Source: an uncultured Chryseobacterium sp. (GTDB lineage: Bacteria; Bacteroidota; Bacteroidia; Flavobacteriales; Weeksellaceae). Taken from it: a stretch of 61,324 bases of DNA. The first letter of the stretch is position 1, and each line of letters starts with the position of its first letter. A program made the position numbers and the translations under genes. Where the stretch lies: the NCBI GenBank assembly GCA_913778085.1, contig CAJYXJ010000011.1, positions 1 through 61,324 of the forward strand, in the 5' to 3' direction. Positions 24,772 through 32,702 of the stretch are shown here, piece by piece. The notes below the pieces were generated by a model. It was not told the DNA's origin and searched no databases. It saw only the letters and a list, made by a program, of their open reading frames with translations.

Positions 24772-25587
24772 GTTGTGAATTGCTTTCATTTATCCGTATC
24801 TTTGGGATACAACACAACGTTTGATTTAAAAACAATGCCTTACAGCATGTTGTGAATTGCTTTCATTTATCCGTATCTTTGGGATACAACACAACACCTG
24901 GTTAACCTGCCAGAAGCGATTATGAGTTGTGAATTGCTTTCATTTATCCGTATCTTTGGGATACAACACAACGAATTATTTATGGTGCTGCCTGAGGGAG
25001 TGTTGTGAATTGCTTTCATTTATCCGTATCTTTGGGATACAACACAACATTCCGGGGCTTTATAAATTGATGGACTTCGTTGTGAATTGCTTTCATTTAT
25101 CCGTATCTTTGGGATACAACACAACGCCTTCGGATATTACTTGTTTAACCAGGGTGTTGTGAATTGCTTTCATTTATCCGTATCTTTGGGATACAACACA
25201 ACCTGCTGGACCATGAAAAGTATTACAAACTTGTTGTGAATTGCTTTCATTTATCCGTATCTTTGGGATACAACACAACCGGTGTTTAGTTTGATGGTTT
25301 TACCCTGGTGTTGTGAATTGCTTTCATTTATCCGTATCTTTGGGATACAACACAACTGTATTTCGTGACAAACCAATTACGAATTGGTTGTGAATTGCTT
25401 TCATTTATCCGTATCTTTGGGATACAACACAACGCAGCTGGATTTATCAAAAGCATTGTACTTGTTGTGAATTGCTTTCATTTATCCGTATCTTTGGGAT
25501 ACAACACAACTTTACAAAACAACAAAACTTTTCTATTCAGGTTGTGAATTGCTTTCATTTATCCGTATCTTTGGGATACAACACAAC
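24772..25587 (+). CRISPR. Type II-C CRISPR array: 11 identical 47-bp repeats, 10 spacers
   Basis: Repeats begin at 24772, 24849, 24926, 25002, 25079, 25156, 25233, 25310, 25387, 25464 and 25541. Each starts GTTGTGAATTGCTTTCATTT and ends GGGATACAACACAAC. Spacers are 30 bases except the third, 29. Orientation is +: the repeat 5' part pairs with the tracrRNA anti-repeat at 31480-31497, and a terminator follows the last repeat. Each repeat contains TATCTTTG, a perfect Bacteroidetes -7 box, with TTG of the repeat start 21 bases before it. Each spacer may therefore be transcribed from its own repeat, as in Neisseria II-C arrays. No spacer matched elsewhere in the window by eye. Confidence 0.98.
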
Positions 25588-25645: not shown

Positions 25646-26020
<375 letters not shown>

Positions 26021-26028
26021 TCAATTCA

Positions 26029-26922
26029 TCAGATCAGTTCAGGATAAGAAATCAGCCGTTTTTCTCCGGTATAGCATTTGTAAAGAGATGAGGCCGTGGT
26101 TTTTACCGCCACCATTAATGGCCTTGTTTTATCTTCGATGCGTACGTCTTTAGTTGCAATCTGCAGCATATAGGCTTTGAAATCTTTCGACAGTTCATCA
26201 TTCTCAGGATGCAGTTTAAGCCACTGCATGACCAGCAAATCTACGAACGGCCGGTAAGGTTCCATCAGATCGTCCGCCAGGCAATACGGATTGTATTTGT
26301 TTTTATGAAAAATGCCAAGAACCGGCAGTAGACCCGTTTCAACAATAGCCCGGGCAACAATACTCCTGAGCACCGCATAACCGAAATTAAAAAACGGGTT
26401 GGGAGAATCCCCGAAACGCTGCCTCAGAAAATCCAGGCTGATAAGGTATTTCCAGTAGTGCTGGGCAGCAATTCCTTCCATATTGGTGATGTCGCCGGAT
26501 TTTACATTTCTTTGATACTCTATCATAGGTTCATAATAATTCCCAAGCTTCATCAGGACATTTTTCTGATTTTCAATCTTGCACTCCACGGTCTGTTTCC
26601 ACAGCTGTTTTTTCAACGGCTCACTGGCTTCCAGCTGGTCTTTCACCCGATCCGAATGTTCCGTATGGCCATACAACGGGAGCATAATTCCGTGTGGCAA
26701 ATGATGGGCATCACAACTCACAACCACCACATTATTTCCCATCATTTTCTGGATCAGGTTATGCGAAATGGTGATCTGAAAATGGTCCAGCATCAGCAAT
26801 CCCAGATCTTCGACAGGAACACTCCCCTTTTCCGTTTTCGTTTCCGGACAGAAAATTTTCAGCTGCTCGTCCTTGAGCTTGAGATAAGCGGGGTTGCCGA
26901 TGTAGATGGAGCGGGTGATCAT
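26029..26922 (-). CDS. cas1: CRISPR-associated integrase Cas1 (type II)
   Basis: A 297-residue Cas1. The N-terminal beta domain (MITRSIYIGNPAYLKLKDEQ, VPVEDLGLLMLDH) leads to the helical catalytic domain with metal-site residues in NMEGIAAQHYW (Glu), GIFHKNKYNPYCLADDLMEP (His and Asp/Glu). Together with Cas2 it captures and inserts new spacers. It begins 13 bases after the cas9 stop, so the three genes form one operon, cas9-cas1-cas2. No csn2 or cas4 is present, which defines subtype II-C. Confidence 0.96.
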   Translation of the reverse strand: MITRSIYIGNPAYLKLKDEQLKIFCPETKTEKGSVPVEDLGLLMLDHFQITISHNLIQKMMGNNVVVVSCDAHHLPHGIMLPLYGHTEHSDRVKDQLEASEPLKKQLWKQTVECKIENQKNVLMKLGNYYEPMIEYQRNVKSGDITNMEGIAAQHYWKYLISLDFLRQRFGDSPNPFFNFGYAVLRSIVARAIVETGLLPVLGIFHKNKYNPYCLADDLMEPYRPFVDLLVMQWLKLHPENDELSKDFKAYMLQIATKDVRIEDKTRPLMVAVKTTASSLYKCYTGEKRLISYPELI

Positions 26923-26935
26923 ATTATAAAAGTTT

Positions 26936-29900
26936 TTAATATTCTCCTACATGAACTATTTTTCCCAGATGATTTAGGCGAACCTTTAAAATACCTTTTA
27001 ATCCACTTAGTCCTTCTCTTCTCCAAGTAACTCCTTTCAAAGCAGAATTATCTTCAACCGTAGTTTCAAGATGATGCCTAAAGAAATAGTCTTTTGTTGC
27101 AATTTTCTGTACTCTGAAAAGATTTTTTGAAATCAGACTTAAATTCTTTTCATCAAATAAATTAACTTCTTTAGGATCAAAATCTTCAGAAGGAAATAAA
27201 AACATTTCATTCTGTTTCATCGTAAATAAAAACTTCCAGCCCAATTCAGCATTGTATTCTTTATCAATAGCGGGTAAATTTTGGTTTACTCTTTCAACGG
27301 CTTCATAAAAACTAACAATTTTTTCCTGAAAATTTCCATTTATGTCTTCATAAATAGCTACATGATGGTTATTTCCGGTACTCACGAAGTCTACAGCTAT
27401 TTTTTTACCATTTTCATCTAAGATTTCTTTACCTAAATGGTCTTTTTTATAATGCAAAGCTTCAGCATTATTAATTCCTGTAATAGTAACAATCTTTATA
27501 GCAATTCCTTTAGATTTATTAAGCCAGATTGGATTCTTCTCCAAATCAGAAAAAGCTTCTTTAGAATTTCCGTTAAATTCTTTTAATCTTTCTATCAATA
27601 TATCGCGAATCCCTTTATCAATTACCTTTTCAATATTTTTATAATCTTTAAAATTATCCGGATTAACAGCTTTTCTGATCGTATAACCTGTTTCATACCA
27701 AGCTAAAGTTACAGTCTCGGGAATCTGTTCAGTTTGATCTTTACTCAAATAGACTGGATTTTTAGAAATAACATTTTTCCCGGTAAATGCTTTTTTAGGA
27801 TCCTCTCCAAATTCTTTTAATCTATTCAATAAAGCGTTTCTATAGCTTTCGTTTTGAACCTTTTTAATCGTTTCCAAATCGAACTTTCCCGATATTTTTT
27901 CTTCTTTGGTCTTAAGAAATTTTGAACTTCCATAAATCGTTTCTTTGTGAAGCTGACCTCTTGGCGTGAGTTCTATTTTTGCAATTATGCTACCTTTTTT
28001 CTTAATTTTGTTAATGTTTTTGGTTACAACCTTATTTTTAGCTTTATGAGAAATTAAGATCTCATCTAAATGTATTCTAGCTTCTGTTCTTAGATTTTTT
28101 ATAGGCTCTTTAAATCGTCTTTCCTTTGAGCCATTTTTCTTTTCAACTATTTCTATAATATTTTTTTCAATATTTGTAATTATTTTATGCTCCTGATGCT
28201 CTTCGTTTTTTCTTGCATTTAAGTAATTCAAATACTGGATGTGATTATGTGTAGTAAAAGCAACTGTTAACGCATCCATTGCGTGATGGCGATGATCGTT
28301 TCTTTTCGTCCAATCTATAATTCTCTGCTTCTCTTCTCCTTTCGAATTTATAACCGTTTCTACAAAACCTAATTTTTTATATTTTTCCAGATTAAGCTCT
28401 TTCATGGTGTTTACGAGGTTCCAATCCTCACGAAGCTTATCCGTTATCCTTCCAGAAGTAGAAATTACAGAATTGGTTATTTCAAAGAGAATTTCCTTAG
28501 ACTTTTTCGCAATGTATTGGGTGTTTCGTAAATCTCTTTCAATAAAGCCATCTCCTATTTCGATACCTTTTTTTTGTAGTTTTTCAAGTTTGGCTTTGGT
28601 GATTGCTCCCTTATCATACAGATCCTGTATAATGTTAAGGAACTTTTCTAATTTTTCTTTTCCTTCCATTTCGAGATAATCGAAAGCCGTAAAATTTCCT
28701 TTTTTGAGATTGGCACCCCGTGGGACCAAAACTTTATTGGAAAAACTATCATCAAAAAATCTGGATTGTGGTATGATATGGTCAATATCATATTTTTCAC
28801 TAAATAAGTTTTCTCTTTCGATTTTCACATCTGTATATAAATCTTTAAAGCCATTATTTGCCAGTTCTAAATATAACTTATAACGGATTATATCATTTCT
28901 TGATGGAACAGAGATATTAAATTCTTTTCTTAAAATTTCAGCATATTTCTGATGCTGTATGGTGGTTTTGCTAATTTCAGAAGTCATTGTCGCGCGTTCT
29001 TCCGCACTAAATTTGAGTTCTCGTGCAAGCTCGATTCTTATTTCATCAGGCTTTCCGTATTCTTTGATAAGCTCATTAACCAAATTAATCATTTGATTTA
29101 AAATCTTTTCAACTACAGGATTTCGTAGGGAATTTTTTGGAAGTATTTCCAACTGCTCCTTTAATATCCGGTTTTCTAACTGTTCTTTGGTCAAAGAATT
29201 TTTGGAATGATTATAACCTGCATAATTACAGGCTATACTGTATTTATGTTCTTTGATGAATGGATAAATCTTTCGCATAGCTTTAGTACTCAGATTTCCA
29301 TAATCCTGAGGGAAACCAATTTCCGCCAATATTTTGGAATGCTCTTTTTTAAAACCGAATTTCTTGTTCAGTAACTCATACAGTTTTTCATTTCCTGACG
29401 GAGAATCATCACCTTCATAAGAATACAGCAAATGCCAAAGCTGATAAGAAGCCTGTTTTTCGAAATCACTTTCTTTCAACTCCGGGTTAAAATCCATTAC
29501 AGAAACATCGATGCCTAACTTTGAAAGCTTTTCTTTGACAAATAATTTTATAATTTCAGCGGAAGCATTTATTTTAGAAATTTTGATTTCATCTTCAATG
29601 GTTAATTTAAATTCTTTTGGGAATTCTATTCCTTCACCGGCAATAATCTTCAGAAAAGCAGTATATAAATTTTCGTTGGTATAGTTTCCTTCAATCTCTT
29701 TGAAATTTGCTTTCCATTCTTTTCCTGAATAACCGACGAGCTCTAAAACATCCTTCGCAGAAATTTTTCCTTTAATATTCACTTCATCAAAAATGGATTG
29801 TTTAAAATCCAAATCTATGGGGAACACTTCTTTTGAATCTGCATTTTGAAACAGTAAATTATTTAAAACCTGCCAGATTTTAAATTGCTGAAATAATGGA

Positions 29901-31126
29901 GAAGACTTTGGTGCTACTTTTAAACCGACCGTTTTCTTTTTTGTTTTTCCATTTTCTGTAATTTCTATTTCTCTGTTTTCAAACTCACAGATACTAATCA
30001 AGCCTTTCTGTGATTTTAGTTTCCTCTGATAGAAAATAATAATATCCCGAACCTCTTCTTTTAATTCCTGCGTTAATTCTCCATGATACTTAGATTGAGT
30101 TTCCCAAATTCTCTCGAATTCGTCCAAATAATCCTGTCTGTAAAAAACCTGATTTTTAAGTTTTGTATGGGGATTTTCTTTTAACTGCTGATATAAGTAT
30201 TCTCCAACAGTTTGGTTATTAAAATATAATTCTTTGCTTCTATCACTTATTGCACCTAAATAACCGCTTGAATTATTCAGATTGCTGTTGATCTCCTGAA
30301 GAACAACAGCCAGACTTTCAAAACCCAATTGTTTTTTTATAGCTTCACTTCTCCAAAGATATTTTTCTTCTTTTTTTTCCTGAGCAGTTCCTGTCTGTTT
30401 TACTCCTATGAGGGAGAACGGTTCTTTTAAAATGGCCCAGGTGGCATTTTTATTCTTTCCCTGTAAATCTTTATAAAGCTGCTCCGTAAGAATTTCAGGA
30501 TAAAAATTCTTTTGAAAATTCCAGACCTTATCAAACTCCGATTGCAAATCTGAACGGTAAAAATCCGGCAATTGCTTCTTGCCTTCTTGTAGAAGTTGAT
30601 GCGAATATTCTCCCGGAGTTAAATTCTCTTCGTATAATTTTTTGGCAACAGCCATTCCGTCTATAATTTGTCCTTCTTCATCATTTTTGGCTTTACGACT
30701 GCTCTTGTATCCTCTTTTTTTATTAATTAAAAGTAAGACCCTGGCAAATTCAGTCAGATCAATTCTTTCTTTTGCAGCTTTTGCTCTTAATTCCTGAGTT
30801 TGAAAAGTAGAATTTTTACCGGTCTCAGCAAGAAAATCATTTTCTCTAAGAATATTATTTCTTGTTAAAATATCAATAAGATTAGCCCTTCTTAACTTAA
30901 ACCTTTGAAGATTTCTTCTCGCGCTTCTGGCTAAAGTTCTTCCTGCATTGGTAGTAATCGGTTTTCCTTTTTCAAAATTCAATTGTTCATCAACAGTAAG
31001 AGGATTGACACGAACTCCAAGTTTAATGATTTTATTATTTTCAGGACTTTTAGAATCTTCCTGAACATAGGCCCATCCTATCGAAGAAATACCTAAGTCT
31101 AATCCCAATATTTTATTTACGTTCAT
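26936..31126 (-). CDS. cas9: CRISPR-associated endonuclease Cas9 (type II-C)
   Basis: A 1,396-residue Cas9. RuvC-I has Asp10 in GLDLGISSIGWA; an Arg-rich bridge helix follows (ARSARRNLQRFKLRR); RuvC-II has Glu699 in RIELARE; the HNH domain has His783 in YDIDHIIPQSRFFDDS; RuvC-III has His948 and Asp951 in HHAMDAL. All nuclease residues are intact, so the enzyme should cut both strands. An upstream in-frame ATG at 31156 lies inside the proposed -7 box and would not be transcribed, so ATG 31126, giving MNVNKILGLDLG, is chosen. The gene is clearly more AT-rich than cas1 and cas2. A proposed self-regulatory guide RNA lies just upstream. Confidence 0.97.
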   Translation of the reverse strand: MNVNKILGLDLGISSIGWAYVQEDSKSPENNKIIKLGVRVNPLTVDEQLNFEKGKPITTNAGRTLARSARRNLQRFKLRRANLIDILTRNNILRENDFLAETGKNSTFQTQELRAKAAKERIDLTEFARVLLLINKKRGYKSSRKAKNDEEGQIIDGMAVAKKLYEENLTPGEYSHQLLQEGKKQLPDFYRSDLQSEFDKVWNFQKNFYPEILTEQLYKDLQGKNKNATWAILKEPFSLIGVKQTGTAQEKKEEKYLWRSEAIKKQLGFESLAVVLQEINSNLNNSSGYLGAISDRSKELYFNNQTVGEYLYQQLKENPHTKLKNQVFYRQDYLDEFERIWETQSKYHGELTQELKEEVRDIIIFYQRKLKSQKGLISICEFENREIEITENGKTKKKTVGLKVAPKSSPLFQQFKIWQVLNNLLFQNADSKEVFPIDLDFKQSIFDEVNIKGKISAKDVLELVGYSGKEWKANFKEIEGNYTNENLYTAFLKIIAGEGIEFPKEFKLTIEDEIKISKINASAEIIKLFVKEKLSKLGIDVSVMDFNPELKESDFEKQASYQLWHLLYSYEGDDSPSGNEKLYELLNKKFGFKKEHSKILAEIGFPQDYGNLSTKAMRKIYPFIKEHKYSIACNYAGYNHSKNSLTKEQLENRILKEQLEILPKNSLRNPVVEKILNQMINLVNELIKEYGKPDEIRIELARELKFSAEERATMTSEISKTTIQHQKYAEILRKEFNISVPSRNDIIRYKLYLELANNGFKDLYTDVKIERENLFSEKYDIDHIIPQSRFFDDSFSNKVLVPRGANLKKGNFTAFDYLEMEGKEKLEKFLNIIQDLYDKGAITKAKLEKLQKKGIEIGDGFIERDLRNTQYIAKKSKEILFEITNSVISTSGRITDKLREDWNLVNTMKELNLEKYKKLGFVETVINSKGEEKQRIIDWTKRNDHRHHAMDALTVAFTTHNHIQYLNYLNARKNEEHQEHKIITNIEKNIIEIVEKKNGSKERRFKEPIKNLRTEARIHLDEILISHKAKNKVVTKNINKIKKKGSIIAKIELTPRGQLHKETIYGSSKFLKTKEEKISGKFDLETIKKVQNESYRNALLNRLKEFGEDPKKAFTGKNVISKNPVYLSKDQTEQIPETVTLAWYETGYTIRKAVNPDNFKDYKNIEKVIDKGIRDILIERLKEFNGNSKEAFSDLEKNPIWLNKSKGIAIKIVTITGINNAEALHYKKDHLGKEILDENGKKIAVDFVSTGNNHHVAIYEDINGNFQEKIVSFYEAVERVNQNLPAIDKEYNAELGWKFLFTMKQNEMFLFPSEDFDPKEVNLFDEKNLSLISKNLFRVQKIATKDYFFRHHLETTVEDNSALKGVTWRREGLSGLKGILKVRLNHLGKIVHVGEY

Positions 31127-31153: not shown

Positions 31154-31187
31154 CAAATATAAAAATAATTACCGTTTTAGTTATCAA
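31154..31187 (-). promoter_or_regulatory. cas9 promoter
   Basis: On the minus strand, TTG (31185-31187) and TATATTTG (31154-31161) are spaced by 23 bases, a good Bacteroidetes -33/-7 pair. Transcription would start near 31147, upstream of the ATG at 31126. Confidence 0.7.
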
Positions 31188-31188
31188 C
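31179..31188 (-). promoter_or_regulatory. Proposed Cas9 self-targeting site in the cas9 promoter
   Basis: The minus strand reads GTTGATAACT, identical to the ten bases that immediately precede the solitary half repeat at 31328. It covers the -33 TTG of the cas9 promoter and is followed on the same strand by AAAACGGT, where a PAM would lie. A ten-base seed should permit binding without cleavage. Inference from sequence. Confidence 0.6.
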
Positions 31189-31204
31189 CAATATAATAAA
31201 TCTA

Positions 31205-31212
31205 TATCTTTG
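31205..31212 (+). promoter_or_regulatory. Candidate -7 box for the crRNA-like RNA
   Basis: TATCTTTG, the same octamer as inside every CRISPR repeat, faces right toward the solitary half repeat. Its -33 region overlaps the cas9 promoter, so the two promoters are divergent and overlapping. No strong TTG is seen at the right spacing. Confidence 0.4.
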
Positions 31213-31299
31213 TTCATAGAAAAGATTATTTCTGACGAGAAATTATTATTAAGGTCCAAACTTAATTCGAAAATCCCCCGAGGTTTTTTGCTTTTTCTA

Positions 31300-31386
31300 T
31301 ACGATGGTTATTTTATAGTTGATAACTATTGTGAATTGTTTTCATTTCAATCCTAATAAGTTAATTCTTATTAGGATTTCTTTTTC
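31300..31386 (+). ncRNA. Proposed crRNA-like (tracr-L/scaRNA-like) guide RNA controlling cas9
   Basis: At 31328-31348 a solitary copy of the repeat's 5' half (ATTGTGAATTGTTTTCATTT) matches the array repeat at 18 of 20 bases and pairs with the tracrRNA anti-repeat over 18 positions with one G-U. The preceding bases end in GTTGATAACT, which also occurs in the cas9 promoter. The element is followed by a perfect 12-bp hairpin and a T tract. The 5' end is not known (the given start is nominal). It could act in trans as a crRNA, or, if transcription reads through to the tracrRNA 100 bases further on, as a natural single guide. Confidence 0.6.
31349..31386 (+). terminator. Terminator of the crRNA-like RNA
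   Basis: AATCCTAATAAG pairs perfectly (12 bp) with CTTATTAGGATT around TTAATT, followed by TCTTTTTC. It starts directly after the half repeat. Confidence 0.8.
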
Positions 31387-31468
31387 ATAACAATAAACTG
31401 CCGAAAGATATGCTTAAATTTTTTTATTAAAATACGGAAAACCATAAACCTATAAAAAAAATATTTTC

Positions 31469-31476
31469 TAGATTTG
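31469..31476 (+). promoter_or_regulatory. -7 box of the tracrRNA promoter
   Basis: TAGATTTG fits TAnnTTTG and ends three bases before the anti-repeat, so the RNA would start at or just inside the anti-repeat. No clear -33 TTG. Confidence 0.55.
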
Positions 31477-31477
31477 T

Positions 31478-31559
31478 ACATGAAAGCAATTCACAATAAG
31501 GATTATTCCGTTGTGAAAACATTTGGGTTGCCTCTTGTCCATAATCAGGGGGCTTTTTT
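31478..31559 (+). ncRNA. tracrRNA
   Basis: The anti-repeat ATGAAAGCAATTCACAAT (31480-31497) is complementary to the first part of the CRISPR repeat over 17 bases. It is followed by the nexus AAGGATTATTCCGTTGTG typical of flavobacterial II-C tracrRNAs and by a terminator, GCCTCT/AGGGGGC plus six T's (31530-31559). The RNA is transcribed divergently from cas9 and in the same direction as the array. Confidence 0.9.
31530..31559 (+). terminator. tracrRNA terminator hairpin
   Basis: GCCTCT pairs with AGGGGGC (one G-U, one bulged G) around an 11-base loop, then TTTTTT. In II-C systems this stem is also held by Cas9. Confidence 0.7.
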
Positions 31560-31611
31560 ATGCCCTGCCGTTGCGGAATGCAGAGAAGAAGAGGATTAAT
31601 ATTGTGACGCA

Positions 31612-31823: not shown

Positions 31824-32228
31824 TTACTTCCCGATCAGTTTTTCCAGCCGCTCCATCATCTCTTCCTTCTCCTTCAACATGCGTTCGTATAAAGCAATTT
31901 TTTCTTCGTGAAGTTTTATTAATTGTTCGACCGGATGAAAAATCGGGTTATGATTCACAACCGATCCGTTGTCATGATTGGTAATTGTATTTGCAATGAT
32001 GCTGATGGCAGATTGTTCATCAAAGTTCTGAAAGGCTTCCACCGGGATATTCAGGACTTCGGAGATTTTTTTGAGCAGCGCTTCTTCCACGACGCTTTTC
32101 TGTTCCAGGATGGAGATTTTCTTCTGGTTCCAGTCTTCGCCGAGATCGAAGGCAAGGGCTTCCTGCTTGATGCCGAGCATTTCCCTGAATCGTTTTATAT
32201 TTCTTCCCTGGTGTATTTTATGTTCCAT
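31824..32228 (-). CDS. XRE-type helix-turn-helix protein (paralogue 2)
   Basis: A 134-residue protein with an N-terminal HTH_3 domain (about 8-65: NIKRFREMLGIKQEALAFDLG, then KISEVLNIPVEAFQNF) and a C-terminal coiled coil (LIKLHEEKIALYERMLKEKEEMMERLEK). Probable DNA-binding regulator or dimeric antitoxin-like protein. Its first ~75 residues and last ~30 are nearly identical to the neighbouring paralogue; only the middle differs. No toxin gene lies beside it. Confidence 0.85.
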   Translation of the reverse strand: MEHKIHQGRNIKRFREMLGIKQEALAFDLGEDWNQKKISILEQKSVVEEALLKKISEVLNIPVEAFQNFDEQSAISIIANTITNHDNGSVVNHNPIFHPVEQLIKLHEEKIALYERMLKEKEEMMERLEKLIGK

Positions 32229-32267: not shown

Positions 32268-32702
32268 TTACTTCCCGATCAGTCTTTCCAGCCGCTCCAT
32301 CATTTCCTCCTTTTCCTTCAGCATGCGTTCGTACAAAGCAGTCTTTTCTTCATTCAGTTTCCTGATTTCTGCCAAAGCTTCCAACCATTTTTCGGAGGTG
32401 TCAATGGTTGAATGAATCTGATACAATTGGCCGGTGGCTTGGTCGTTGACCGTTGTAACTGTATTGGCAATAATATTAATCGCCTGTTCCTCATCAAAAT
32501 TCTGAAAAGCCTCCACCGGAATCTTCAGGACTTCGGAGATTTTTTTGAGCAACGCTTCTTCCACGACACGTTTCTGTTCGAGGATGGAGATTTTCTTCTG
32601 ATTCCATTCTTCGCCGAGATCGAAGGCAAGGGCTTCCTGCTTGATGCCCAGCATTTCCCTGAACCGTTTGATGTTTCTGCCCTGATGTATTTTATGTTCC
32701 AT
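32268..32702 (-). CDS. XRE-type helix-turn-helix protein (paralogue 1)
   Basis: A 144-residue protein with the same HTH start, MEHKIHQGRNIKRFREMLG, and the same coiled-coil end as its downstream neighbour, 39 bases away. The middle (TVTTVNDQATGQLYQIHSTIDTSE-like) is different. A tandem duplication that diverged only in the central linker is the simplest explanation. Both likely form one transcript ending at the terminator near 31765. Confidence 0.85.
   Translation of the reverse strand: MEHKIHQGRNIKRFREMLGIKQEALAFDLGEEWNQKKISILEQKRVVEEALLKKISEVLKIPVEAFQNFDEEQAINIIANTVTTVNDQATGQLYQIHSTIDTSEKWLEALAEIRKLNEEKTALYERMLKEKEEMMERLERLIGK

Follow-up and report, generated by a model that had tools for sequence, protein, structure and literature searches.

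The window, as we call the whole stretch of DNA that was analysed (61,324 nucleotides from an uncultured Chryseobacterium sp.), probably encodes a crRNA-like regulatory RNA at positions 31216-31386, with which Cas9 and tracrRNA would bind a short site in the cas9 promoter without cutting it and repress both cas9 and the RNA itself. Comparison of sequences revealed a standalone half CRISPR repeat, a guide that matches a nearby target and changes together with it among relatives, target flanks that carry the PAM of the respective Cas9 group, overlap of the targets with promoters, and a structured leader and hairpin in the RNA.

The type II-C locus in the window consists of the array, cas2, cas1 and cas9 (minus strand), followed by the tracrRNA (plus strand). 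The features of this locus are as follows, with the basis of each assignment in brackets.

24772..25587, plus strand: CRISPR array, 11 repeats of 47 bp and 10 spacers of 29-30 bp (repeat search)
25646..25984, minus strand: cas2 (open reading frame downstream of cas1)
26029..26922, minus strand: cas1 (open reading frame downstream of cas9)
26936..31123, minus strand: cas9, type II-C, 1395 amino acids from ATG (open reading frame and orthologues in relatives)
31469..31476, plus strand: predicted -7 box of the tracrRNA promoter, TAGATTTG (by eye, TAnnTTTG rule)
about 31480..31562, plus strand: tracrRNA, with the anti-repeat at 31480-31498 and the conserved core at 31492-31523 (core and anti-repeat match)

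The cas9 translation shows the RuvC-I motif GLDLGISSIGW together with HHAMDA and DIDHIIPQS...N. We take the two smaller frames to be cas1, from the II-C gene order and a protein motif, and cas2, from its position after cas1. The tracrRNA gave a weak match to the Rfam tracrRNA, below the gathering score. Past it lie two tandem paralogous small genes (31824-32228 and 32268-32702), 88% identical over 251 nt, whose products resemble helix-turn-helix regulators by eye. An ACGG...CCGT-type palindrome, possibly a protein operator, was seen upstream of the tracrRNA (about 31434-31449), between the tracrRNA and cas9 promoters. The promoters were assigned by TAnnTTTG, the -7 rule of Bacteroidota as given in PMC10309648. 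The features of the guide RNA and its target lie between cas9 and the tracrRNA.

31154..31161, minus strand: predicted -7 box of the cas9 promoter, TATATTTG (TAnnTTTG rule)
31174..31178, minus strand: target PAM, AAAAC (NAAAC; independent protospacers of group-1 Cas9)
31179..31188, minus strand: target GTTGATAACT in the shared promoter region of cas9 and the RNA (sequence match; overlaps the predicted -33 of both promoters)
31205..31212, plus strand: predicted -7 box of the guide RNA's own promoter, TATCTTTG (TAnnTTTG rule)
31216..31300, plus strand: cloverleaf-like structured leader of the guide RNA (alignment, covariation and single folds)
31300..31333, plus strand: hairpin pairing the guide seed with the start of the half repeat (predicted fold)
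31318..31327, plus strand: guide 3' end, 10-nt match to the target, GTTGATAACT (sequence match)
31328..31348, plus strand: standalone half CRISPR repeat, ATTGTGAATTGTTTTCATTTC (repeat and anti-repeat comparison)
31349..31386, plus strand: intrinsic terminator, 12-bp stem and T-rich run (sequence reading)

The initial annotation of this DNA had described a half repeat between cas9 and the tracrRNA, a perfect 12-bp terminator directly after it and a guide match that ends precisely at the junction of guide and half repeat, and all three were present as claimed. A 19-nt stretch of the half repeat is 95% identical to the array repeat, its first base is A, not G, and its predicted duplex with the tracrRNA comprises 18 pairs at -22.5 kcal/mol, compared with -25.2 for the array repeat. 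It lies outside the array, which ends 5.7 kb away at 25587, and about 130 bp from the tracrRNA on the same strand. The terminator is formed by the inverted repeat AATCCTAATAAG and CTTATTAGGATT (31349-31360 and 31367-31378) with the T-rich run after it.

The second copy of the ten-base guide sequence covers the -33 region of cas9, at 31179-31188 of the minus strand, again as first described. This site is the best match to the guide 3' end anywhere in the 61-kb window; the runner-up is 9 nt long, 25 kb distant and without a PAM. Of 51,549 decoy positions from the same loci, 0.3% had a match of at least 10 nt in this geometry, a figure that leaves PAM and conservation uncounted. In the 4.6-Mb genome, TTGATAACT followed by NAAAC occurs once, at the target, and a reversed control pattern occurs twice; the single site means only that there is no second one of its kind and is itself not evidence.

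To follow the match among relatives, we scanned 174 genomes of the genus, 94 of which had a match to the Cas9 N-terminus, and read 30 close-orthologue loci, most of which have no half repeat between cas9 and tracrRNA. One relative (G069) retains the guide, target and PAM of the window with an 11-nt match. Another (G005) also has a half repeat and terminator; its guide, ATATTTGTAGAGT, is different and finds a 13-nt match in the cas9 promoter of the same genome, at a different position that covers the -7 box. Likewise, G014 and G183 have differing guides (GTACAGAGTTA and GTGCAGAGTTA), each with a matching site. The initial annotation had counted relatives that keep the half repeat and lose the match as evidence against its proposal; the opposite was seen in G069, which keeps the match, and in G005, in which both sides have changed, so that guide and promoter site co-vary between species.

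We then sought tracrRNA cores more widely. Matches were present in 50 of 395 genomes of the order, in 143 of 321 genomes of the family and in at least 119 stretches of further genome contigs. Once identical stretches had been dropped, 262 tracrRNA loci were left, and these were scanned for half repeats. A half repeat was called, blind to any target, when it lay within 1 kb and had no more than 3 mismatches over 16 positions to the anti-repeat of the same locus, members of arrays being dropped. In 19 of the 27 half-repeat matches, the guide matched 8-13 nt of the opposite strand at a distance of 60-330 bp upstream. An upstream match of at least 8 nt was found at 1.7% of the 51,549 decoy positions from the same loci and in none of 314 non-cognate pairs of guide and region. 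The 19 matching loci carry ten different guide 6-mers, relatedness reducing their effective number, and six of the 27 half repeats had no target, some of them plainly being no mini-CRISPRs. Two more loci of the same anatomy were accepted by eye, giving 21 loci with a mini-CRISPR: Kordia jejudonensis matches over 7 nt, and G034 over 6 nt followed by one mismatch and further pairs. A chance repeat and a chance 10-mer were both rejected on the decoys, the non-cognate pairs and the relatives. The RNA is dispensable, since it is present in only 21 of the 262 tracrRNA loci.

As a negative control, solitary repeats in viral contigs gave a self match of at least 8 nt in 0 of 33. Phage-borne copies aimed at cas9 promoters were considered and rejected on the same 33 repeats, which include three and two identical copies; their best matches to host regions are 7-11 nt long and spread over many regions. 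Seven of the viral contigs (L417, L421, L425, L429, L434, L436 and L437) have solitary, nearly full-length repeats that are candidates for RNA anti-CRISPRs of the Racr kind, as these are presented in PMC10651486.

The 21 loci fall into three architectures and one exception. In class A (11 loci: the window, G069, G005, G014, G183, G012, G112, G067, G034, G397 and Kordia), the half repeat lies between cas9 and tracrRNA and is divergent from cas9. In class B (G032, G097, G114, G071 and G115), it lies past the tracrRNA on the opposite strand; the guides again differ (GATTGAATCG and GATTAAATCG), each matching its own site, and by eye they show a 9-10-nt seed match and, past a guide bulge of one base, further pairs. 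In class C (G132, G105, Flavobacterium sp. xlx-214 and G428), it is upstream of cas9, on the strand of cas9, behind a tRNA-like sequence. By eye, G132 and G105 match over 8 nt, a bulge and 12 more bases, one of which has changed in both guide and target between the two. The remaining locus, G449, has an architecture on its own.

Several further elements were seen in these loci. At L293, in G397, the half repeat is accompanied by a solitary repeat of nearly full length, which immediately precedes cas9 and lies 546 bp before the tracrRNA core. In class B, a conserved stretch that looks like a transcript, with a TAnnTTTG box and a terminator of its own, lies between the tracrRNA and the half repeat and resembles another small RNA (L033, about 2600-2860, and the same place in L035, L038, L043 and L045). 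L066 and L073 carry second, partial tracrRNA-like copies with a degraded anti-repeat just past the class B target.

The target lies at most 7 nt from the RNA's own predicted -33 (TAnnTTTG promoter) in 20 of the 21 loci and overlaps it in 10, compared with 1.6% overlap and 5.5% within 15 nt for random positions; the exception, G067, has no TAnnTTTG box for the RNA. These positions support the earlier suggestion that the RNA, whose candidate promoter overlaps the same site, may also limit itself. In each of the 11 class A loci, a -7 box on the minus strand points toward cas9, and the target overlaps or abuts this box or lies at most 2 nt from its -33; nine of the 11 have a guide match of at least 8 nt. 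The RuvC-I motif of cas9 is found 36-218 nt beyond the box, and the assignment of the cas9 promoter is less sure in G012, G112 and G034 because this distance is about 215 nt. At the other 10 loci (class B, class C and G449), the RNA targets its own promoter, and the site cannot clearly be assigned to a cas9 promoter. Autorepression of the RNA would therefore be the general rule and repression of cas9 the case of class A, to which the window belongs.

To estimate the PAMs, we compared two arrays with phage records and found repeat-like matches in Riemerella phages and no usable protospacer; genus genomes were therefore used. The 174 genomes were searched with 122 array spacers and then with up to 93, and protospacers were counted when they lay outside arrays with at most 4 mismatches. 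For group 1, which includes the Cas9 of the window, eight spacers (from G088, G016, G005 and G139) gave 10 protospacer sites, two of them in the spacer's own genome, with NAAAC in 5, NAAA in 8, one GGAAC and one GATAT. For group 2 (G183), NNRAAT was present in all four protospacers from three spacers, a fifth site with 5 mismatches being a misfit. The protospacers of G132 showed NRATNC in 3 of 6, the two best matches (0 and 1 mismatch) being misfits. These samples are small and mixed. A tree of Cas9 N-termini separates group 1, group 2 and the G132/G105 rows.

The targets follow the same division. Group-1 target flanks are NAAAC in 7 of 8 (background 1.3%; the exception, G097, has GAAAT), group-2 flanks are NNRAAT in 7 of 7 (background 4.0%; G034 counted by its 6-nt match), and both G132/G105 flanks are NRATNC (background 1.3%). 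In total, 16 of 17 targets have the motif of their own Cas9 group and none has that of another group; xlx-214, G449, G397 and Kordia, which have other Cas9s and no PAM estimate, were left out. The group-1 and group-2 motifs were first suggested by the targets and only then tested on protospacers. For Riemerella, PMC6008519 gives the PAM GWATTN upstream in its authors' orientation, which in the orientation of the crRNA would read NAATWC downstream; an earlier Riemerella paper states that no motif was found (PMC5006608). Taken together with the upstream matches of 19 of 27 half repeats, the own-group PAMs of 16 of 17 targets support the proposal of the initial annotation that a built-in crRNA-like RNA closes a loop of Cas9 self-repression.

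In G016 (L067 and L272), two overlapping frames make up a split cas9, and one of the array spacers has a match in its own genome with 2 mismatches and an AAAAC flank. Eleven Riemerella phages, and one labelled Shigella phage Henu10, carry a short II-C-type array of 2-4 repeats with 29-30-nt spacers between a dinD-like gene and a small gene (L090 1526-1640 and L091 2490-2760; phages RAP44 and CRP19), possibly aimed at rivals or serving as a decoy for Cas9.

We also examined the part of the RNA between promoter and half repeat. Ten leader sequences from nine class A loci were aligned, Kordia, G397 and a second G112 copy being left out. They align around the motifs UGACGA, UCCAA and CCCAA, and the consensus forms three hairpins with two-sided changes in 15 of 19 pairs; 9 of 10 single folds gain a closing stem that completes a cloverleaf, the exception being G067. 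No Rfam family reached its gathering score in the window, and permissive Rfam scans of the stretch and five relatives gave sub-threshold matches only. In class C, ARAGORN called a tRNA in the tRNA-like part of all four loci, with the anticodons GAA, TAT, GAA and ATT. A reading of the class A leader as a true tRNA was not retained. A hammerhead-like reading of CUGACGAG in the leader was rejected, the GAAA core of the motif not being in place by eye. In L302 and L322, a tandem second copy of the structured leader lies on the cas9 side, about 200-270 bp upstream of the half repeat.

The end of the guide is predicted to be held in a hairpin. Its last 8 nt had a mean pairing probability of 0.79 in the 21 loci, whereas decoys averaged 0.46 and 300 array crRNAs 0.51 (Mann-Whitney, 2e-9 and 1e-8, respectively), and values of at least 0.8 were found in 11 of 21 loci versus 9%. 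A seed hidden in this way could as well mean an inactive RNA.

We infer transcription, loading of Cas9, repression and the absence of cutting as follows. From the TATCTTTG box at 31205, the RNA would be transcribed divergently from cas9 and would comprise, in order, the cloverleaf-like leader, the hairpin-held guide seed, the half repeat and the terminator. The half repeat would pair with the tracrRNA, and the RNA would load Cas9 and take it to the PAM-flanked ten-base site at 31179-31188, where the guide, like Cas9 guides in general, can pair with the DNA strand that does not carry the PAM. It is established for Cas9 that a seed-length match with a PAM allows binding without cutting, and a match of this length should permit the same here. 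Bound Cas9 would cover the -33 regions of the cas9 and RNA promoters and so exert negative feedback on free Cas9. By analogy with CreR, the repression would be lifted by anti-CRISPR proteins, and the crRNAs of the array would be competitors for Cas9.

The structured part admits another reading, modelled on CreTA, in which the cloverleaf or tRNA-like part would act as a toxic RNA or a misfit tRNA, silenced by Cas9 with the guide and freed when Cas9 is lost or inhibited, the repression of cas9 in class A being a side effect of the shared promoter. It is favoured by the general choice of the RNA's own promoter as target, by the structure between promoter and guide in class A and the tRNA calls in all four class C loci, and by the precedent, described in PMC12737573, of a toxin RNA repressed by a crRNA-like RNA with Cascade; the leader or tRNA-like element is the sole candidate for a toxin under the guide-repressed promoter. 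However, class B has only about 50 nt from promoter box to half repeat and no such part, the leader could equally serve processing, and guide and putative toxin would share one transcript. We consider a toxin unlikely; it is the main rival to processing or restraint of the guide, which we prefer as the role of the leader, tRNA-like part and seed hairpin. The initial annotation had also envisaged read-through, which would yield a natural single guide made of the half-repeat RNA and the tracrRNA. The two lie on one strand about 130 bp apart in the window, and S. pyogenes tracr-L acts so according to PMC11417352. Nevertheless, we regard this part of the annotation as disfavoured and very unlikely, because the 12-bp terminator and a separate TAnnTTTG box intervene before the tracrRNA, and the half repeat is on the strand opposite the tracrRNA in classes B and C, as it is in G449.

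Guide and target are inverted copies by construction and might be the arms of an operator bound by a repressor protein, next to a fossil repeat, and the separate ACGG...CCGT palindrome upstream of the tracrRNA is found in 13 of 21 loci with a mini-CRISPR versus 49 of 241 without. Against this, the match stops exactly at the half repeat, its flank is the PAM of the local Cas9 group, guides vary among loci of one architecture and the arms are 94-216 bp apart, and we give this explanation hardly any credence. We give no more to a riboregulator that acts by RNA-RNA pairing, as reported for the Neisseria meningitidis scaRNA on efeUOB. The RNA is a structured small RNA beside a II-C cas9, and PMC13431127 reports post-transcriptional action of a II-C scaRNA. 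However, the flanks follow Cas9 PAMs, and pairing with the cas9 mRNA is impossible at this site because the guide has the sense of the cas9 strand, that of the mRNA, and matches DNA upstream of its own start. Repression by Cas9 guided to the promoter is the reading that we retain.

If it is true, RNA-guided autorepression extends to type II-C, acting there through a separate guide RNA, and since the guide, the PAM and the promoter are each defined, the proposal can be tested directly. Expression of cas9 in these bacteria would then be expected to be set by anti-CRISPRs and by the load of crRNAs. The loci would further offer natural cases of seed-length targeting in which Cas9 should bind and leave the DNA uncut, among them conserved single-base bulges (class B) and hairpin-locked seeds, as well as PAM estimates that can be read from the loci themselves and RNAs without a known role, namely the structured leader and the tRNA-like element. 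More tentatively, we suggest as a conceivable extension that these RNAs form an undescribed kind of RNA gene in Flavobacteriales II-C loci, a hairpin-locked, seed-only Cas9 guide that silences its own promoter behind a cloverleaf-like or tRNA-like domain. Such a gene might sense Cas9 occupancy, with cas9 as output in some loci and a tRNA-like or structured RNA in others, and might possibly serve as a Cas9-dependent addiction or alarm RNA that is released when phage anti-CRISPRs disable Cas9.

A II-C example was not found in the literature searched, the main papers on CreR and standalone repeats lying outside its scope, which makes for weak evidence that the RNA is novel. The end repeat of II-C arrays yields ecrRNA, which like the present RNA is a crRNA without an acquired spacer; in contrast, the half repeat here lies 5.7 kb from the array and is not an end repeat, and its RNA has its own predicted promoter and a conserved self-matching guide. 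The scaRNAs of Francisella and Neisseria, also type II, resemble it as small RNAs beside cas9 with a regulatory role. In Francisella, scaRNA acts on non-cas genes. The Neisseria scaRNA does so too in the account of PMC13431127. With CreTA of type I it shares a crRNA-like RNA that represses a promoter near cas genes and a tRNA-related theme, but here guide and structured part are in one transcript, the effector is Cas9 and a toxin is only putative.

In tracr-L, which PMC11417352 describes for II-A, a built-in RNA likewise directs Cas9 to a PAM-flanked short site in the cas promoter; there, however, one long tracrRNA serves as single guide, whereas here a separate crRNA-like RNA has its own predicted promoter and terminator. 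The likeness to CreR, described for types I and V-A in PMC12737573, extends to a standalone repeat unit near cas genes and outside the array (31328-31348), short complementarity between guide and cas promoter (10 nt over the predicted cas9 -33), a target flanked by the effector's PAM (AAAAC here, NAAAC in 7 of 8 group-1 targets) and the proposed logic of autorepression. The differences are that the effector is a type II-C Cas9 that needs a tracrRNA and not one of type I or V-A, that there is one half repeat with a terminator, a structured or tRNA-like leader and a seed hairpin, and that the target is also, or only, the RNA's own promoter. The RNA of the window is most likely a type II counterpart of CreR, outside the described type I and V-A set.
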